Of a DNA stretch of 64,000 nt, positions 5,185 to 37,163 are shown in pieces; the stretch's first letter is position 1, and every line of letters starts with the position of its first letter. Below the pieces are notes generated by a model. The model worked only from the letters and a program-made list of their open reading frames with translations. It was not told the origin of the DNA and did not search any database. The position numbers and the translations under genes were made by a program. Location of the stretch: positions 2,267 through 66,266 of the forward strand of contig NZ_LTAQ01000010.1 in NCBI RefSeq assembly GCF_001590835.1, in the 5' to 3' direction. The DNA comes from Bacillus gaemokensis (GTDB taxonomy: Bacteria > Bacillota > Bacilli > Bacillales > Bacillaceae_G).

Positions 5185-6183
5185 TTATTTGTAAGAAACA
5201 TACACGTCTGTTAATAGTTCTTCATCAGCTGGATACTGACTATTTTCACTAAATTCAATTGCTTTTTGTACTGCTTCATCCACTGCTTTTTCCATATCGA
5301 CAAGCTCAGTTTCTGTAAGGAATCCTTCATTGATTAAATGTTTGCGGAAATTCACAATCGCATCTTTTTCATTTAAATGTTCTTCTTTTTCTTCCGCTGT
5401 TTTATATGTTTGTGCCTCACCTTCGAAATGACCATAATTACGATATGTCATACATTCAATTAAAGTTGGCCCTTCTCCATTACGTGCACGTTCAACCGCT
5501 TCTTCCGCTGCTTTATATACTGCTAAAAGGTCTTTTCCATCTACTTGAACACCTGGGATATTATAAGCTTTTGCACGATCCGCAATAGAATTACAACTTG
5601 AAGCGTATTCAAATGTAGTTGCTTCACCATATCCGTTATTTTCAGCAATAAAAATAACTGGTAGCTTCCAAATTGCTGCTAAATTCACACCTTCATGGAA
5701 TGTTCCTTCATTGTTTGCACCATCCCCAAAGAAACAAACGCTTACATCTTTTGTCCCTTTATACTTTGCTGTTAATGCTGAACCGCAAGCAAGTGGAAAT
5801 CCTCCTCCTACAATACCATTTGCTCCAAGCATCCCTTTATCTAAATCGGCAATATGCATTGATCCGCCTTTTCCTTTACATAATCCAGTGGCTTTTCCAA
5901 AAAGTTCAGCCATCATACCATCTAAATCACAACCTTTTGCGATACAATGACCGTGACCTCTATGTGTACTTGTAATACTATCGTTATCTGTTAAGTGGGC
6001 ACATACACCAACTGCTACTGCCTCTTCTCCAGCATATAAATGAACGAAACCTGGTAAAACACCTTGTGCAAATAATTCATGTACTTTATCTTCAAATTTA
6101 CGAATCTCTAACATTTTTTCGTACATCCAACGCGCTTGCTCTTTTGTCATTTCATTCCCTTTACTTTCAGTTGTTTTCAACAT
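5185..6183 (-). CDS. acoA: Acetoin dehydrogenase E1 alpha subunit
   Basis: This 332-aa subunit binds thiamine diphosphate through the motif GDGANNEG starting at residue 153 and ending at ENN (181-183). The phosphorylation-loop-like STHRGHGHCIAKG is near 72. The start at 6183 is chosen because AGGAGGG lies eight bases upstream; a later ATG at residue 12 has a poorer site. It is the first gene of the operon, with a sigma-54 promoter at 6221-6236. With AcoB it forms the heterotetrameric E1 that converts acetoin to acetaldehyde and an acetyl group on AcoC. Confidence 0.95.
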   Translation of the reverse strand: MLKTTESKGNEMTKEQARWMYEKMLEIRKFEDKVHELFAQGVLPGFVHLYAGEEAVAVGVCAHLTDNDSITSTHRGHGHCIAKGCDLDGMMAELFGKATGLCKGKGGSMHIADLDKGMLGANGIVGGGFPLACGSALTAKYKGTKDVSVCFFGDGANNEGTFHEGVNLAAIWKLPVIFIAENNGYGEATTFEYASSCNSIADRAKAYNIPGVQVDGKDLLAVYKAAEEAVERARNGEGPTLIECMTYRNYGHFEGEAQTYKTAEEKEEHLNEKDAIVNFRKHLINEGFLTETELVDMEKAVDEAVQKAIEFSENSQYPADEELLTDVYVSYK

Positions 6184-6220
6184 GTTTCAGCCCTCCTATT
6201 TTCTTGTTCGACCTTTATAT

Positions 6221-6236
6221 TGCAAATACCATGCCA
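6221..6236 (-). promoter_or_regulatory. Sigma-54 (-24/-12) promoter of acoABCL
   Basis: The minus strand reads TGGCATGGTATTTGCA, an exact fit to TGGCAYR-N4-TTGCW with GG and GC ten bases apart. It lies 38 bp from the acoA start. Acetoin operons of bacilli are known to use SigL with the enhancer-binding activator AcoR. Confidence 0.88.
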
Positions 6237-6283
6237 GTTTTAAACCCTTAGAATGATAGGCTTTTTTTCTTCTTAAAAGAGAA

Positions 6284-6327
6284 AAAAGTGGACATAACGA
6301 GACAGATGTCTCATTATGTCCACTTTT
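6284..6327 (-). terminator. Long hairpin, terminator of the upstream DUF2268 unit
   Basis: A 21-bp stem with one mismatch and a two-base loop (AAAAGTGGACATAACGAGACA and its partner), followed by a T run on the minus strand. It ends the merR-like/DUF2268 transcript. It lies about 50-90 bp upstream of the sigma-54 promoter, where activator sites usually sit, so a dual role cannot be excluded. Confidence 0.75.
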
Positions 6328-6373
6328 GTTCATGGTGTTAGAAAACAATAACGTTATTTAAAATACTCTTTCC

Positions 6374-7267
6374 TTAGAAAACTCCACATCCTGTAATAAT
6401 TTCTTCTGCACTTAACAATGTAGCTTCCTGAATTGTAACGTTATTCTTTTTCATAAAAGATTGTACAGCATGATAACCTACGGCGTAACCTGCGCCAGAT
6501 GATAAACCTACTGGTGAATAGCCTTCCTTTTTAGCAATTTCATCCCCAAACATGTAACTATTAACTTCATCAAATCCTCTTAAATGAAAACCTTCCCGAA
6601 CAACATGAAGCGAATATTCGAGCTCTTCCTCATCAATTGAGATAACCCAAGGACCTAAATGTTCCTCACGGTACAACTCAGTAGCAAATGAATCCGCAAG
6701 CCCTTCAATGACTAAATACTCACCCAATGTCACGTCTCCATGATTCCAATTAAAATAAGAAAAACGGAGGTTGTGATGATATTCATGAGCAATAAGCGCA
6801 GGTATTCTTGGAACGTTATACTCATTTGGGTGAATGGTTATGGTGACATACCCAGGTATTCCTCCAAAACCACAGTAGCCCTTTTGATTTTTAAGTTTTT
6901 CAGGATCAGCAATATACATTCCAAACTTTAATTCTTCTGCAGCTACTTCTAAGTTAGCAGCTTTCGAAAACTCTATGCATTTTTTTAGTGCTTTTTGAGC
7001 AATGTCTGAAGCCTCTATTATTTTTAAATCATTCAATGCTTTTCTTGCTATATCACTTTCTTTTATATCCAGATATCCTAACATTTGAGTTGCCATCATA
7101 ACATCATAACCATTTTTTTGTTTAGCTTTAAGTGGTACATTGATTGTATTCCACATACCCTCAAAAGACTTCATCATCGTGTATCTAAAGAAATTTTCTC
7201 TCTTTTCGAGAGGTAATGAAAGTAAAGTTTCATATTGATTTAAAGTATCTTCCATATAGATTTTCAT
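6374..7267 (-). CDS. DUF2268-type putative zinc metalloprotease
   Basis: This 297-aa protein has HEYHH at residues 161-165, an HExxH zinc site, followed about 30 residues later by VIEGLADSFATE, whose Glu would be the third zinc ligand. No signal peptide or membrane segment is visible, so it is probably cytoplasmic. This architecture is that of the DUF2268 family of predicted Zn-dependent proteases; substrates are unknown. It lies 5 bp downstream of a MerR-family regulator and so is probably its target. A second DUF2268 protein with HECHH occurs at 36309-37163. Confidence 0.8.
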   Translation of the reverse strand: MKIYMEDTLNQYETLLSLPLEKRENFFRYTMMKSFEGMWNTINVPLKAKQKNGYDVMMATQMLGYLDIKESDIARKALNDLKIIEASDIAQKALKKCIEFSKAANLEVAAEELKFGMYIADPEKLKNQKGYCGFGGIPGYVTITIHPNEYNVPRIPALIAHEYHHNLRFSYFNWNHGDVTLGEYLVIEGLADSFATELYREEHLGPWVISIDEEELEYSLHVVREGFHLRGFDEVNSYMFGDEIAKKEGYSPVGLSSGAGYAVGYHAVQSFMKKNNVTIQEATLLSAEEIITGCGVF

Positions 7268-26175: not shown

Positions 26176-26280
26176 AATGATGATTCCCTCCTGTCCGTTC
26201 GAAATTTTCAGTCGAGACACAATTGTATAAAAAATACATTTATAAAGTCAATAGTTTGAGTAAAAACTTTCTAAAATATA

Positions 26281-26312
26281 AAAAAGACAAGGAATTCTCC
26301 CTGCCTTTTTCT
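26281..26312 (-). terminator. Candidate terminator after the TPR gene
   Basis: AAAGACAAGGAA pairs imperfectly with TCCCTGCCTTTTT downstream of the TPR protein stop. Confidence 0.45.
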
Positions 26313-26369: not shown

Positions 26370-27623
26370 CTATGTGGTTATTAAATAGCTCTTATGCTCT
26401 TCATCTAATAGATTTTCTTTTTCCCATGTTTCGAGATATTTTTTAAACACTTGTTGTAGATCATGATTTATTTCCTTTGCTATGTTAAACCCATTTATCC
26501 CTGCTGATATATTAGTAGAATCTAGTTTTAGTGTTTGAAGAAATTCATTAAGCGACTCTTCTTTCCTTCCCACCAGGTTGAGGCAATACCCTAACATGAA
26601 GTGTGTGAAAGTCACTCTTGGTAAGCCAATTTCTTTAGCTTTTTCAAACATTGAAAGTGCTTTTTCTGGCTTATTCATTTTCAAATAAAATTCAGCCATT
26701 TCATGATAAGATATACTCCAATTAGGATCCGTGGCTATTAAGTCATATCCAGCACGTTCTGCTTGATTATGGTTTTTCGATAAATAAAGATGTTCCTTCA
26801 GTTCTGATTCATAGCATGTTTTAATAGCATCTAATTTTCGGCATTCCTCTAAATCATTAGTGGCTTGAGCCAAATTAGCATAATATAGTGCTTTTTGCAT
26901 CTCTTCTCTTGTTTCATTTTCCTCTTTCTTTTCAGCTGGTATCATTGCAAATGCTCGATGAAAAGAAGAAACTGCAATATGTTCACTAAAGTTATTTCCT
27001 TCTTTAATTTTTCTACGTGAGCTTATCCCTTGGTCTATATACCATTGAAAGAGCTCATTTCCTATCCTTTTTTGTTTTAATTCCCATACTATTGCTTGAG
27101 TAGCTATTTTTAACCTTATGGTTTCTGGAAAGTTGTTTCCCTCTAACAACTCTTTCATTTTATTAAATTCTAGTTCATAAGACATTTCATCTAAGCGATT
27201 TTTCAAAAGAAATCTTAGATAATAATAACGAAGTTTTTCTTGAACTGAAAATTGCTCTGGATTAATTAGTTGGAGAATATGTGAAGTATATTCATAACGT
27301 GATATTGATAAAAGGTTATGGGCAAGGTTCAATTTTTCTAATGGAGATAATTCATTAATGACTGATAAACGATTTTGTATCCGTTGAATAGGGCCTTCTG
27401 AAACATAATCTAATTTCACTAATTTTTCTATAGGAATCTTTGTAACCTCAGATACTTCAAATAAAATGGATGGTTCTAGTATTTGCCCTAACGTGTATGA
27501 TGGATCATCAAGTGCATGAAACTTGAAAGAACGACAAACAGTCTTTGACCAAATATTAGAATTTTCATCAGTTTCCTTTAAATGTATAATTGCTGATAAA
27601 AATGCGTTCTCACCCATAAACAT
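26370..27623 (-). CDS. Tetratricopeptide-repeat protein of unknown function
   Basis: This 417-aa, almost wholly alpha-helical protein has clear TPR units near the C-terminus (SISYHEMAEFYLKMNKPEKA, then HFMLGYCLNLVGRKEESLNE). Weaker helical pairs run from about residue 110. No HTH, signal peptide or catalytic motif is visible, so it is not a standard RRNPP regulator, although a Rap-like fold is possible. The ATG at 27621-27623 is six bases after GGAGGT. Upstream on the same strand lies a 17-codon ORF with an excellent ribosome site, and an MFS transporter is divergent. A peptide-binding role is an inference only. Confidence 0.75.
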   Translation of the reverse strand: MFMGENAFLSAIIHLKETDENSNIWSKTVCRSFKFHALDDPSYTLGQILEPSILFEVSEVTKIPIEKLVKLDYVSEGPIQRIQNRLSVINELSPLEKLNLAHNLLSISRYEYTSHILQLINPEQFSVQEKLRYYYLRFLLKNRLDEMSYELEFNKMKELLEGNNFPETIRLKIATQAIVWELKQKRIGNELFQWYIDQGISSRRKIKEGNNFSEHIAVSSFHRAFAMIPAEKKEENETREEMQKALYYANLAQATNDLEECRKLDAIKTCYESELKEHLYLSKNHNQAERAGYDLIATDPNWSISYHEMAEFYLKMNKPEKALSMFEKAKEIGLPRVTFTHFMLGYCLNLVGRKEESLNEFLQTLKLDSTNISAGINGFNIAKEINHDLQQVFKKYLETWEKENLLDEEHKSYLITT

Positions 27624-27714
27624 TGCTACCTCCTTCAAATAAAACAATAAATTTTTCCGCTGTATATTATTAGGAATATGTATATATTATAATTTTAGTA
27701 AAATTATTTAGGGG

Positions 27715-27752
27715 GAAAATAGTGAACCCTTAAAATACGATTCACTATTTTC
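27715..27752 (-). promoter_or_regulatory. Hairpin between the 17-aa ORF and the TPR gene
   Basis: GAAAATAGTGAA and TTCACTATTTTC form a perfect 12-bp stem with a 14-base loop. It lacks a T tail on the minus strand, so it may be an attenuator, an RNA-processing site or a weak terminator rather than a full stop. Confidence 0.55.
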
Positions 27753-27761
27753 AAAGTGTTA

Positions 27762-27815
27762 TTAGTTAAATAGTCCAGATAACATGTTGATTTTTTTGCT
27801 TGAGAATTTCACCAT
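27762..27815 (-). CDS. 17-aa small peptide, candidate signalling or leader peptide
   Basis: The frame encodes MVKFSSKKINMLSGLFN and a TAA stop. Its start is seven bases after GAGGAGGTG, one of the best ribosome sites in the window. A promoter with TTGAAT and TATAAC 18 bases apart lies just upstream on the minus strand. The peptide is cationic in the first half and hydrophobic at the end, with no signal peptide. It precedes the TPR gene by 139 bp and is separated from it by a hairpin. It could be a leaderless signalling peptide, a regulatory leader or a toxin-like peptide. It is unrecognised. Confidence 0.55.
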   Translation of the reverse strand: MVKFSSKKINMLSGLFN

Positions 27816-27905
27816 ATTTCTCACCTCCTCAAAACTTATAGTTATGTTATACTATAGAAAATATATAAAATTCAATATTTTCAGAAAATTTTAGGGGGAG
27901 ATATA

Positions 27906-29108
27906 TTGAGAAAAAAATTATGGACAAAAAGTTTTATCTTTCTTTCTCTTAGTAATTTTTTTACTTTTGTAAGTTTTTATATGCTACTTCCTACATTACC
28001 TGTATTTTTATTAGAAGTTTTAAAGGGAAAAGAAGAGCAAATTGGACTCATTATTGGCTTTTTCACATCAGCACAAATATTTTCTCGTCCTCTATCTGGT
28101 AAATGGCTAGATGAATTTGGGAGAAAAAAAGTTTTTTTAATTGGAAGACTTTTATTTTTTTTCTTGATGTTTTTTTATTTAAAAATTATGGGGTTCATAT
28201 TATTTCTTCTTCTTCGCTTTATACATGGCTTTAGTTTTGGGGTTGCATCTACTGCAGCAGGGACAATTATCGCAGATATCATACCAGAAGAAAGACGTGC
28301 GGAAGGAATCGGATATTACAGCGGATTTACTAGTTTAGCTTTAGTTATAGGACCTTCTATCGGATTATTAATAATGAATAACTACGACTATAACATACTA
28401 TTTACATCTTGTTTCATACTAGCTGGGATTAGTGTACTATTAGGTTATCTTGTAGACTTTAAAGATCCACCAAAGTCTAACAAAACACTTGATAACAAAA
28501 CATTTGTTGAAAAATATATTGAGCCTAAAGCAATCCCGATTTCTATCGTATCTATATTACTAGTAGCTGTTTATGGAGGTATAGTTTCCTTTATTTCTTT
28601 ATACGCTATGGAATTAGGTGTAGTATCGGCAGCAGGTTATTTTTTCTCTGTTTATTCAATCGCACTTTTAATTTCCAGACCAATAACAGGTAAAATATCT
28701 GATCGATTTGGTCCCAATTATGTTATTTATCCAGGCATGATTATTTGTATTATTGGAATCATTTTACTAAGTCAAGCATACTCAACCATATCATTTTTAA
28801 TATCTGCATTAATGATTGGGATAGGGTTAGGTTCTCTTCAACCTACTTTAAATGCTATGGTCATTCAATCAGTTTCTCCAGAAAGAAGAGGCGCAGCAAC
28901 TGCCACATATTTTATGTCTGTTGATATTGGGATTGCACTCGGAGCATTTATCCTAGGCTTTATTGCAAAATATATAGGATACAACGGAGCTTTTTTATCT
29001 TCAGCATTTTTTGTTGGCTTAAGCTTACTCTTTTATTATCTATATCAAATAAAGCAATCGAAAAAGCTAAGCAATTCTAATAGTGAAGTAACAAAAACAT
29101 CTTTATAA
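27906..29108 (+). CDS. MFS transporter divergent from the TPR gene
   Basis: This 400-aa major facilitator protein has 12 predicted helices, the loop 2-3 motif GKWLDEFGRKKVFL (about 63-76), and GKISDRFG in the second half. It belongs to the YwoG/TCR-like drug exporter group by overall look. The TTG start follows GGGGGAG by five bases. The short divergent region toward the 17-aa ORF could hold a shared operator. The substrate may be a drug or, by inference, the neighbouring peptide. A terminator follows. Confidence 0.85.
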   Translation: MRKKLWTKSFIFLSLSNFFTFVSFYMLLPTLPVFLLEVLKGKEEQIGLIIGFFTSAQIFSRPLSGKWLDEFGRKKVFLIGRLLFFFLMFFYLKIMGFILFLLLRFIHGFSFGVASTAAGTIIADIIPEERRAEGIGYYSGFTSLALVIGPSIGLLIMNNYDYNILFTSCFILAGISVLLGYLVDFKDPPKSNKTLDNKTFVEKYIEPKAIPISIVSILLVAVYGGIVSFISLYAMELGVVSAAGYFFSVYSIALLISRPITGKISDRFGPNYVIYPGMIICIIGIILLSQAYSTISFLISALMIGIGLGSLQPTLNAMVIQSVSPERRGAATATYFMSVDIGIALGAFILGFIAKYIGYNGAFLSSAFFVGLSLLFYYLYQIKQSKKLSNSNSEVTKTSL

Positions 29109-36308: not shown

Positions 36309-37163
36309 TCATAGCGGCGATACTTTCGGGAAAATTATTCCTTCCCAATTCATCCCCTTTAAATCAATACAATCTTTATTTAGTTTTTCCTTATAATCTT
36401 TTACTTTTAAATATCCGTAAACATAGCCAACCCTCGGTGGCATATTTGCTATTAATTGTTTTTCAGGAGTTCTTGAAAACAAACTCGATGTAAGAGTATC
36501 TTCTTTTACATTTTGCAAGATTAGATGATCAAGCTGAGATATATTTTCCAAAGTCCACTCTACTGTACTCTCAGGAACAAAACAATAATCACATATGCTA
36601 TGACCCGGAACCAACTCCTCAGTAAAGCACGAAGCCAATCCCTCCGTTATAATTCGTTCGCCGATAGAATCTTCAAAAAGATTGTATGTAAAGAATAACT
36701 GTCTGATCCAATGATGACATTCATGTGAGAGAAGCAACTTTAACCCTTCCAAGCTTCCTTGTACAAATTCTAGACAAATTACCGTAACTATTTTATCTTT
36801 ATACTCAACTGAATATATATTCATACACTCTAAACCTACAATAACAAAAACTTCTTGTTCTACCGTTGTATTATGGAGCTTCTTTAAAATATCTTCAGTA
36901 ATTGAAACAATTTTAGCTTCATAGTCTATTGTATTTTCAATTTCTAACACCATCTCTTGGAAATAATCTTTTCCGAGCTCGCTTATCCTAGATAGAGAAT
37001 TCGCTTCATTCAGAAAACCTTTCGGATCAAAATGAAGGTCTTCCAGTTCGTTTTGATGTGGTTTTAAATATAATTCTTTATAATCTTTTATCCAATCACT
37101 CTCTAACTCACTGTTTTTAAACGCATTCAAAAAATCTCGATATAACCAGTTCCATTTAATCAC
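36309..37163 (-). CDS. DUF2268-type putative zinc metalloprotease, second copy
   Basis: This 284-aa protein has SHECHHWIRQ with the zinc motif at residues 147-151. The segment ITEGLASCFTEEL, carrying the third ligand Glu, follows some 30 residues later. It shares this layout with the gene at 6374-7267 but is otherwise divergent, so the two are old paralogs. The GTG start lies seven bases after AAAGGGG. No regulator gene is adjacent. Confidence 0.78.
   Translation of the reverse strand: MIKWNWLYRDFLNAFKNSELESDWIKDYKELYLKPHQNELEDLHFDPKGFLNEANSLSRISELGKDYFQEMVLEIENTIDYEAKIVSITEDILKKLHNTTVEQEVFVIVGLECMNIYSVEYKDKIVTVICLEFVQGSLEGLKLLLSHECHHWIRQLFFTYNLFEDSIGERIITEGLASCFTEELVPGHSICDYCFVPESTVEWTLENISQLDHLILQNVKEDTLTSSLFSRTPEKQLIANMPPRVGYVYGYLKVKDYKEKLNKDCIDLKGMNWEGIIFPKVSPL

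Follow-up and report, generated by a model that had tools for sequence, protein, structure and literature searches.

A leaderless 17-amino-acid peptide gene recurs beside a TPR superhelix protein and a divergent MFS transporter gene, with a relative on a Rhizobium plasmid

Organization of the locus

The DNA analyzed here, referred to as the window, is a stretch of 64,000 nucleotides of Bacillus gaemokensis (contig NZ_LTAQ01000010.1, positions 2,267 to 66,266 of the forward strand), the gene content of which would suit the Bacillus cereus group. It carries a gene for a leaderless peptide of 17 amino acids (MVKFSSKKINMLSGLFN; 27762..27815, minus strand), a gene for a tetratricopeptide repeat (TPR) superhelix protein of 417 amino acids counted from the first ATG (26370..27623, minus strand), which we propose to be the partner of the peptide, and, divergently, a gene for an exporter-like transporter of the major facilitator superfamily (MFS), 400 amino acids long with a TTG start (27906..29108, plus strand; MFS_1, E = 4.8e-73). 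An initial annotation, made from the sequence alone, had called all three genes, including the strong Shine-Dalgarno (SD) sequence of the small open reading frame (ORF) and the distance of ~90 bp between the starts of the MFS and peptide genes, and these calls held. Peptides alike are encoded at the equivalent site in four further loci and beside a TPR gene on a Rhizobium plasmid, and it is practically certain that the peptide ORF is translated and linked in function to the TPR protein.

The SD sequence of the peptide gene (GAGGAGGTG; 27822..27830, minus strand) was read directly from the sequence. A candidate sigma-A-like promoter, TTGAAT-18-TATAAC (27846..27875, minus strand), was found in a loose scan run without a shuffle control, and its end lies 30 nt 5' of the ATG. 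In the same scan, matches of 9 to 11 of 12 positions were present 30-34 nt 5' of the ATG in the window and in 4/4 close relatives, the relatives' matches (32-34 nt before the ATG) being better than that of the window. However, a stricter scan did not list the peptide promoter and returned fewer sites in the region than in its own shuffles. The assignment of a promoter of its own to the peptide gene, made in the initial annotation, thus leans mainly on the relatives, because the match in the window is weaker.

A terminator-like hairpin follows the peptide stop codon (27715..27752, minus strand; RNAfold, -17.4 kcal/mol). It had been described as 12 bp long; the hairpin is present, but RNAfold gives 14 stacked pairs. 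In the window it has a weak T-run, with no clean one, and it is missing from the output of the terminator scan. The whole 241-nt spacer is no more stable than its shuffles (z = -0.92; 32/200 shuffles at least as stable). A hairpin 3' of the small ORF was found in 7/7 loci folded. The TPR gene is also followed by a terminator-like hairpin, which the terminator scan did report (26280..26311, minus strand).

Conservation of the trio in close relatives

Searches with the TPR protein and with an alignment of TPR proteins recovered four genomes with the same arrangement (loci L015, L016, L026 and L027), their TPR proteins being 42-54% identical to that of the window. Short SD-preceded ORFs lie at the equivalent place in the four loci (MMTFESPVVDRLSALFPA, MMKFTTSTVDKLLALFP, MIKFSSENMVILTAAFPA and MKFESKNVKSLSALFPA), and the stems of the hairpins that follow them are similar in sequence. 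The MFS gene is divergent from the peptide gene in all four, with orthologues 53, 58 and 45% identical to the window protein and one that is split over three frames. In this last locus (L016, 5604-6869), the TPR and peptide genes are open, and the split is due to either pseudogenization or an assembly error.

Absence of the ORF from homologous loci had been named as evidence against the initial proposal. Instead, the ORF, its start site, the promoter position and the hairpin all recur in four other genomes, and the three genes, for the peptide, the TPR protein and the divergent MFS protein, are found together as a unit in the window and four other loci, the MFS gene being split in one. Across the 6 locus pairs with an intact pump, the identities of the TPR and MFS proteins rise and fall together, one near-tie excepted. 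No gene besides those for the TPR and MFS proteins was common to all five close stretches at an E-value of 1e-6.

A peptide profile recovers a member on a Rhizobium plasmid

To compare the peptides with other short ORFs, we built a profile from the five peptides (window and four close loci) and held each out in turn. The pool comprised 20 sequences (392,528 bases) with 5,725 ORFs of 15-24 amino acids on both strands, nested starts being counted separately. Nine of these were classed as family, namely the Rhizobium ORF described below and the peptides with their alternative starts, and were removed beforehand, leaving 5,716 for comparison. The held-out peptides scored 23.3, 32.3, 28.5, 23.8 and 35.7, against 11.5-15.6 for the best of the 5,716 other ORFs. 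By comparison, SD-preceded ATG ORFs of 15-22 amino acids arise in 16/2000 mononucleotide shuffles of the window spacer, and we regard conservation as the decisive evidence for the peptide ORF.

With the full five-peptide profile, the top-scoring ORF not used for training was MVEFTSTKMEILSSLFII (score 25.9; next best, 13.8), located at position 7818 of L001, the Rhizobium rhizogenes plasmid pC5.7d. This ORF was first noticed by eye in a spacer scan and had no part in the profile that scored it. None of 300 dinucleotide shuffles of the region reached 25.9, the highest score being 14.7. The ORF has an SD sequence 5' and a terminator 3', and lies one gene 3' of a TPR homologue 33% identical to that of the window, after a VOC-TPR-VOC gene series; a small conserved ORF lies beside the TPR gene in the window, in 4/4 close loci and in Rhizobium. 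The Rhizobium cluster combines the TPR gene with a propeller gene, phosphonate genes and a second VOC gene, the product of which is 68% identical to that of L017, a Bacillota locus described below. A wider view of pC5.7d (L034, 8506-29351) places the peptide and TPR genes amid genes for phosphoenolpyruvate mutase, phosphonopyruvate decarboxylase, LicD, an M28 peptidase, a TetM-like protein and an MFS transporter. A later profile that included the Rhizobium peptide found no second copy in the window.

The peptides share the C-terminal consensus L-S-A-L-F-P. In the family, which is 17-18 amino acids long, net charge ranges from -1 to +3 and hydropathy is moderate, the best 9-residue value being 0.96 in the window peptide and up to 2.09 elsewhere. 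The term leaderless, as used in the initial annotation, is apt, the peptide being too short for the usual secretion signal.

The TPR protein

The best Pfam TPR model scored 26 bits against the window protein, just below its gathering cut-off, and Pfam TPR models matched 7/7 TPR homologues at E <= 0.01. The AlphaFold2 model is a TPR superhelix of the peptide-groove type (pLDDT, 85.0; pTM, 0.83), preceded by a partly helical segment, residues 1-80, of low pLDDT (block means 40-74). The predicted structure thus contains a C-terminal TPR superhelix such as characterizes the receptors of the RRNPPA family. Invariant residues lean mildly to the inner helices (36/132 versus 20/112 in outer ones), helices being classed as inner or outer from their succession in the model rather than from coordinates, and the counts being given as such, without a test of significance.

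None of the Rap, Rgg, NprR, PlcR, PrgX and AimR models in Pfam and NCBIfam matched the protein up to an E-value of 1, and no helix-turn-helix (HTH) model was matched in these two libraries, in line with the initial description of a TPR protein devoid of HTH. With neither a family match nor a recognized HTH, the sequence does not place the protein in RRNPPA. Among the best 60 of 167 matches, a profile search of PDB sequences retrieved generic TPR or PPR proteins only. Beyond TPR and MFS models, the family libraries (Pfam; NCBIfam; PHROGs, best E = 0.0058; PADLOC, none) offered no specific family.

A wider, diverged family

The genome of L015 encodes a second TPR protein (L017; 41% identical), in an operon upstream of which lie six tandem ORFs that end in NYEVSQPSFFPSVQPV and a seventh, degenerate one. 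In the five most alike copies, variation inside the ORF is confined to three sites, all synonymous, and is greater in the spacers. The order of the L017 cluster is VOC-TPR-VOC-MATE-PQQ propeller-aminotransferase. Recombinase-like genes flank this VOC-TPR-VOC-MATE cluster, as in a mobile element (L037, 7179-8939; L036, 2659-6710), and are similar to one annotated in L035 as encoding a recombinase family protein. A Macrococcus plasmid (L002) carries MKSFSTGKVRAALFPSPTT, a hairpin and then VOC-TPR-VOC-MATE-propeller genes. On this Macrococcus armenti plasmid, the TPR homologue contains an in-frame stop (5992-7245) and is annotated as two hypothetical proteins. Genes for a ThiF-family adenylyltransferase, an arginase and an isochorismatase lie 5' of the Macrococcus peptide (L035, 7086-11195) and may represent another peptide-modifying cluster.

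More distant is the TPR homologue of L028, 20% identical to that of the window. It belongs to a RiPP-like cluster (RiPP, ribosomally synthesized and post-translationally modified peptide; L028, 3969-9619) in which four tandem 30-amino-acid ORFs (METNNIVATEQELNAEFGIVMGMDEGQYCD) accompany genes for an alpha-ketoglutarate-HExxH (aKG-HExxH) peptide hydroxylase scoring 90.9 bits where the cut-off is 40, an MslH-like epimerase that at 266 bits stays below its cut-off of 700, the TPR protein and an MFS transporter. Plasmids of Kitasatospora (L031) and Streptomyces (L032) encode further distant TPR proteins with possible micro-ORFs; an MFS gene lies near the former, and none is listed within the 11 kb shown at the latter. 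The micro-ORFs of L002, L017, L028, L031 and L032 fall outside the peptide profile, which ranks other ORFs best at these loci (0.7-11.4); they were assigned by position, SD sequence, tandem copies or hairpin only, and the two from Actinomycetota are guesses. The annotation listed for the Rhizobium and Macrococcus plasmids does not include the peptide micro-genes, and such systems would therefore be findable by co-occurrence where annotation misses them.

Distribution

Homologues of the TPR protein are rare. Broad whole-genome searches found them in at least 2/397 (the same two positives in two overlapping draws), at least 1/398 and at least 3/398 genomes, counts that are lower bounds because no more than 4 candidates were scored in each genome. 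Smaller genome groups yielded 1/2, 1/1, 1/10, 1/7 and 2/42; the sets overlap. Phage records contained no match to the TPR protein or to the window DNA, and no relative turned up in scans of viral contigs or in a scan of genome contigs with the TPR protein. The same kind of scan with a neighbouring helicase returned 8 loci; in the 4 of these 8 genomes that were searched, no homologue of the window TPR protein was present (one weak match, 1.9e-5). Literature searches gave no match for six fragments of family peptides, the Rhizobium peptide not being among them, and, among the papers listed, no recognized description of the peptide-TPR-MFS trio, as judged mostly by titles and abstract openings.

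Comparison with known systems

Sporulation, virulence and the decisions of phages are under the control of peptide-TPR pairs, of which the known examples are Gram-positive and mostly rely on signal-bearing propeptides. Like the trio, the RRNPPA systems of Bacillota (Rap-Phr, NprR-NprX, PlcR-PapR, AimR-AimP) combine a TPR superhelix of ~400 amino acids with an adjacent small peptide gene, and Rap lacks an HTH, none being recognized in the TPR protein either. In contrast to RRNPPA, the window peptide lacks the usual secretion signal and is encoded upstream of the putative receptor with a candidate promoter and a hairpin of its own, and there is no family-level sequence match; an MFS gene lies alongside in the close loci, and one member of the family is Gram-negative. 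Hydropathy and the length of 17-18 amino acids, the two properties assessed here, do not fit the propeptide with a secretion signal that is typical of RRNPPA. Propeptides carrying several pheromones are known in RRNPPA (PMC11343458).

In the leaderless communication peptide (LCP) system SIP-RopB, too, an ultrasmall ORF without a leader lies next to the gene of a receptor that contains TPRs, and biosynthetic gene clusters and transporters are among the neighbours (PMC10518010). RopB, however, is a DNA-binding activator and SIP has 8 amino acids (PMC10518010), whereas the window TPR protein has neither an Rgg-type nor an HTH match. It is plausible that the TPR protein functions in the manner of a receptor of the Rap or LCP type. 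As a concept, tagless peptide-TPR pairs have already been published: the 'loose' class of RRNPP_detector, a computational category, would take a TPR protein with a peptide that is preceded by a ribosome-binding site and lacks a secretion tag (PMC10075063).

In layout, the trio also resembles microcin C of Escherichia coli (mccA-mccB-mccC), with a tiny leaderless ORF, a terminator (weak in the window), a partner gene and a pump; there, the terminator after mccA makes the peptide far more abundant than the enzymes encoded downstream, and the product leaves through the pump (PMC6495379). The differences are the adenylating MccB in the place of the TPR protein and a peptide of 7 rather than 17-18 amino acids. 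The five close stretches share no MccB-type (ThiF-like) enzyme, and a ThiF gene lies ~7 kb from the Macrococcus peptide. A precursor together with a modifying enzyme, as in RiPP clusters, was found only at the distant homologue L028, with no shared enzyme beside the close loci. The BipC/PbsE proteins of biphenomycin clusters are likewise annotated as TPR proteins and encoded near an MFS gene and precursor peptides, but BipC is a UPF0489 arginase with the metal motifs EEHxE, DxHxD and DIDLD (PMC12707348, PMC12257519). Kinship with it was rejected, no arginase family being matched here.

Interpretation and alternatives

We tentatively favour, at somewhat less than an even chance, a self-contained peptide-receptor module with its own exporter, because the close loci share no modifying enzyme and the TPR superhelix is receptor-like. 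In such a module, the promoter would drive a short mRNA for the 17-18-amino-acid leaderless peptide, and the hairpin would stop many transcripts, leaving the peptide in excess over the TPR protein, which would itself be made by read-through or from a second weak promoter. As a dedicated receptor, the TPR protein would hold the peptide or its C-terminal piece, which carries the consensus, in its groove, the divergent MFS pump would export the peptide, and the peptide-bound TPR protein, in which no HTH is recognized, would alter its interaction with a partner, as Rap proteins do. The individual steps differ in strength: that the TPR protein binds the peptide is likely, whereas export by the MFS pump is an even call, and signalling and a product are equally to be expected as the purpose.

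Several observations weigh against this module. The peptide is alike at both ends from Bacillota to Rhizobium, and signal peptides usually diverge fast; Rhizobium, being Gram-negative, also lies beyond the range over which RRNPPA signalling is known. Neither an import gene nor a regulated target is linked to the trio, and the RiPP-like or phosphonate clusters that house distant homologues are as compatible with a product as with a signal. Invariant residues favour the inner helices only mildly, and the structural matches of the TPR protein are undiscriminating because helical repeats match each other widely. The control for the MFS gene is imperfect: the profile including the Rhizobium peptide found no peptide in 6 kb around each of four weaker MFS relatives on plasmids without a TPR match, but these relatives are 34-39% identical, versus 45-58% in the trio loci, and they represent only 4 of the 91 plasmid records in which MFS was matched.

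The Gram-negative member, the multi-copy peptide genes and the phosphonate and RiPP-like clusters make a secreted product or its precursor a serious rival, doubtful as it stands yet ranking close behind the peptide-receptor module. Here, the peptide would be a leaderless precursor or a finished bioactive peptide, microcin-C-like or RiPP-like; the TPR protein would be dedicated to it as a chaperone or for maturation or immunity, and the MFS protein would export it. Besides the microcin C layout and the hydroxylase and epimerase genes of L028, the VOC proteins and PQQ-like propeller that accompany the TPR homologues of Rhizobium and two Bacillota speak for it, as do the phosphonate genes of Rhizobium. 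The absence of a conserved modifying enzyme speaks against it, as do the charge and hydropathy of the peptides, which are atypical of membrane-active bacteriocins. On the same two properties, a toxin resembling phenol-soluble modulins was rejected.

A purely intracellular pair, in which the peptide tunes the TPR protein and the latter controls the pump against some drug with no export of the peptide, appears unlikely. Efflux- or resistance-like neighbours are indeed usual (MFS in the close loci, VOC and MATE in L017 and L002, TetM-like in Rhizobium), but none is listed within the 11 kb shown at the Streptomyces locus, and the multiple peptide genes would need a separate reason. The small ORF and hairpin ahead of the TPR gene in the close loci could suggest a leader-peptide attenuator, in which translation of the ORF, for instance when stalled by a drug, controls the hairpin and hence the TPR gene. 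However, in a crude duplex test, pairing between the ORF and the 5' arm beat shuffled ORFs in 1/7 loci at a threshold of 0.05 (fraction 0.03 in L015; 0.26-0.87 elsewhere), and the tandem ORFs of L017, viewed by eye without folding, show no hairpin at each. The Rhizobium ORF lies 3' of the TPR and VOC genes with its own terminator and therefore cannot attenuate the TPR gene, and we consider attenuation very improbable. A chance ORF without function, to which the very short length and the shuffle frequency given above would lend some colour, is hardly credible in view of the conservation at homologous loci in the held-out profile test.

Peptide, TPR protein and pump probably make up a secreted-peptide system of a new kind. 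It is conceivable, although we would not yet count on it, that it exemplifies a new class of micro-peptides, 17-20 amino acids long and leaderless, with a dedicated TPR partner without a recognized HTH and usually an MFS or MATE pump nearby, spread on plasmids and in gene clusters over Bacillota, Alphaproteobacteria and, judging from diverged micro-ORFs, perhaps Actinomycetota. Such a class would mean that Gram-negative bacteria, too, possess a peptide-TPR system. A leaderless peptide of 17 residues that is similar across phyla and comes with a partner and a pump would either carry peptide signalling past the Gram-positives or constitute a minimal three-gene system of peptide export.

Elsewhere in the window, an ORF at 36309-37163, unrelated to the trio, carries an HECHH motif and looks by eye like a metalloprotease.
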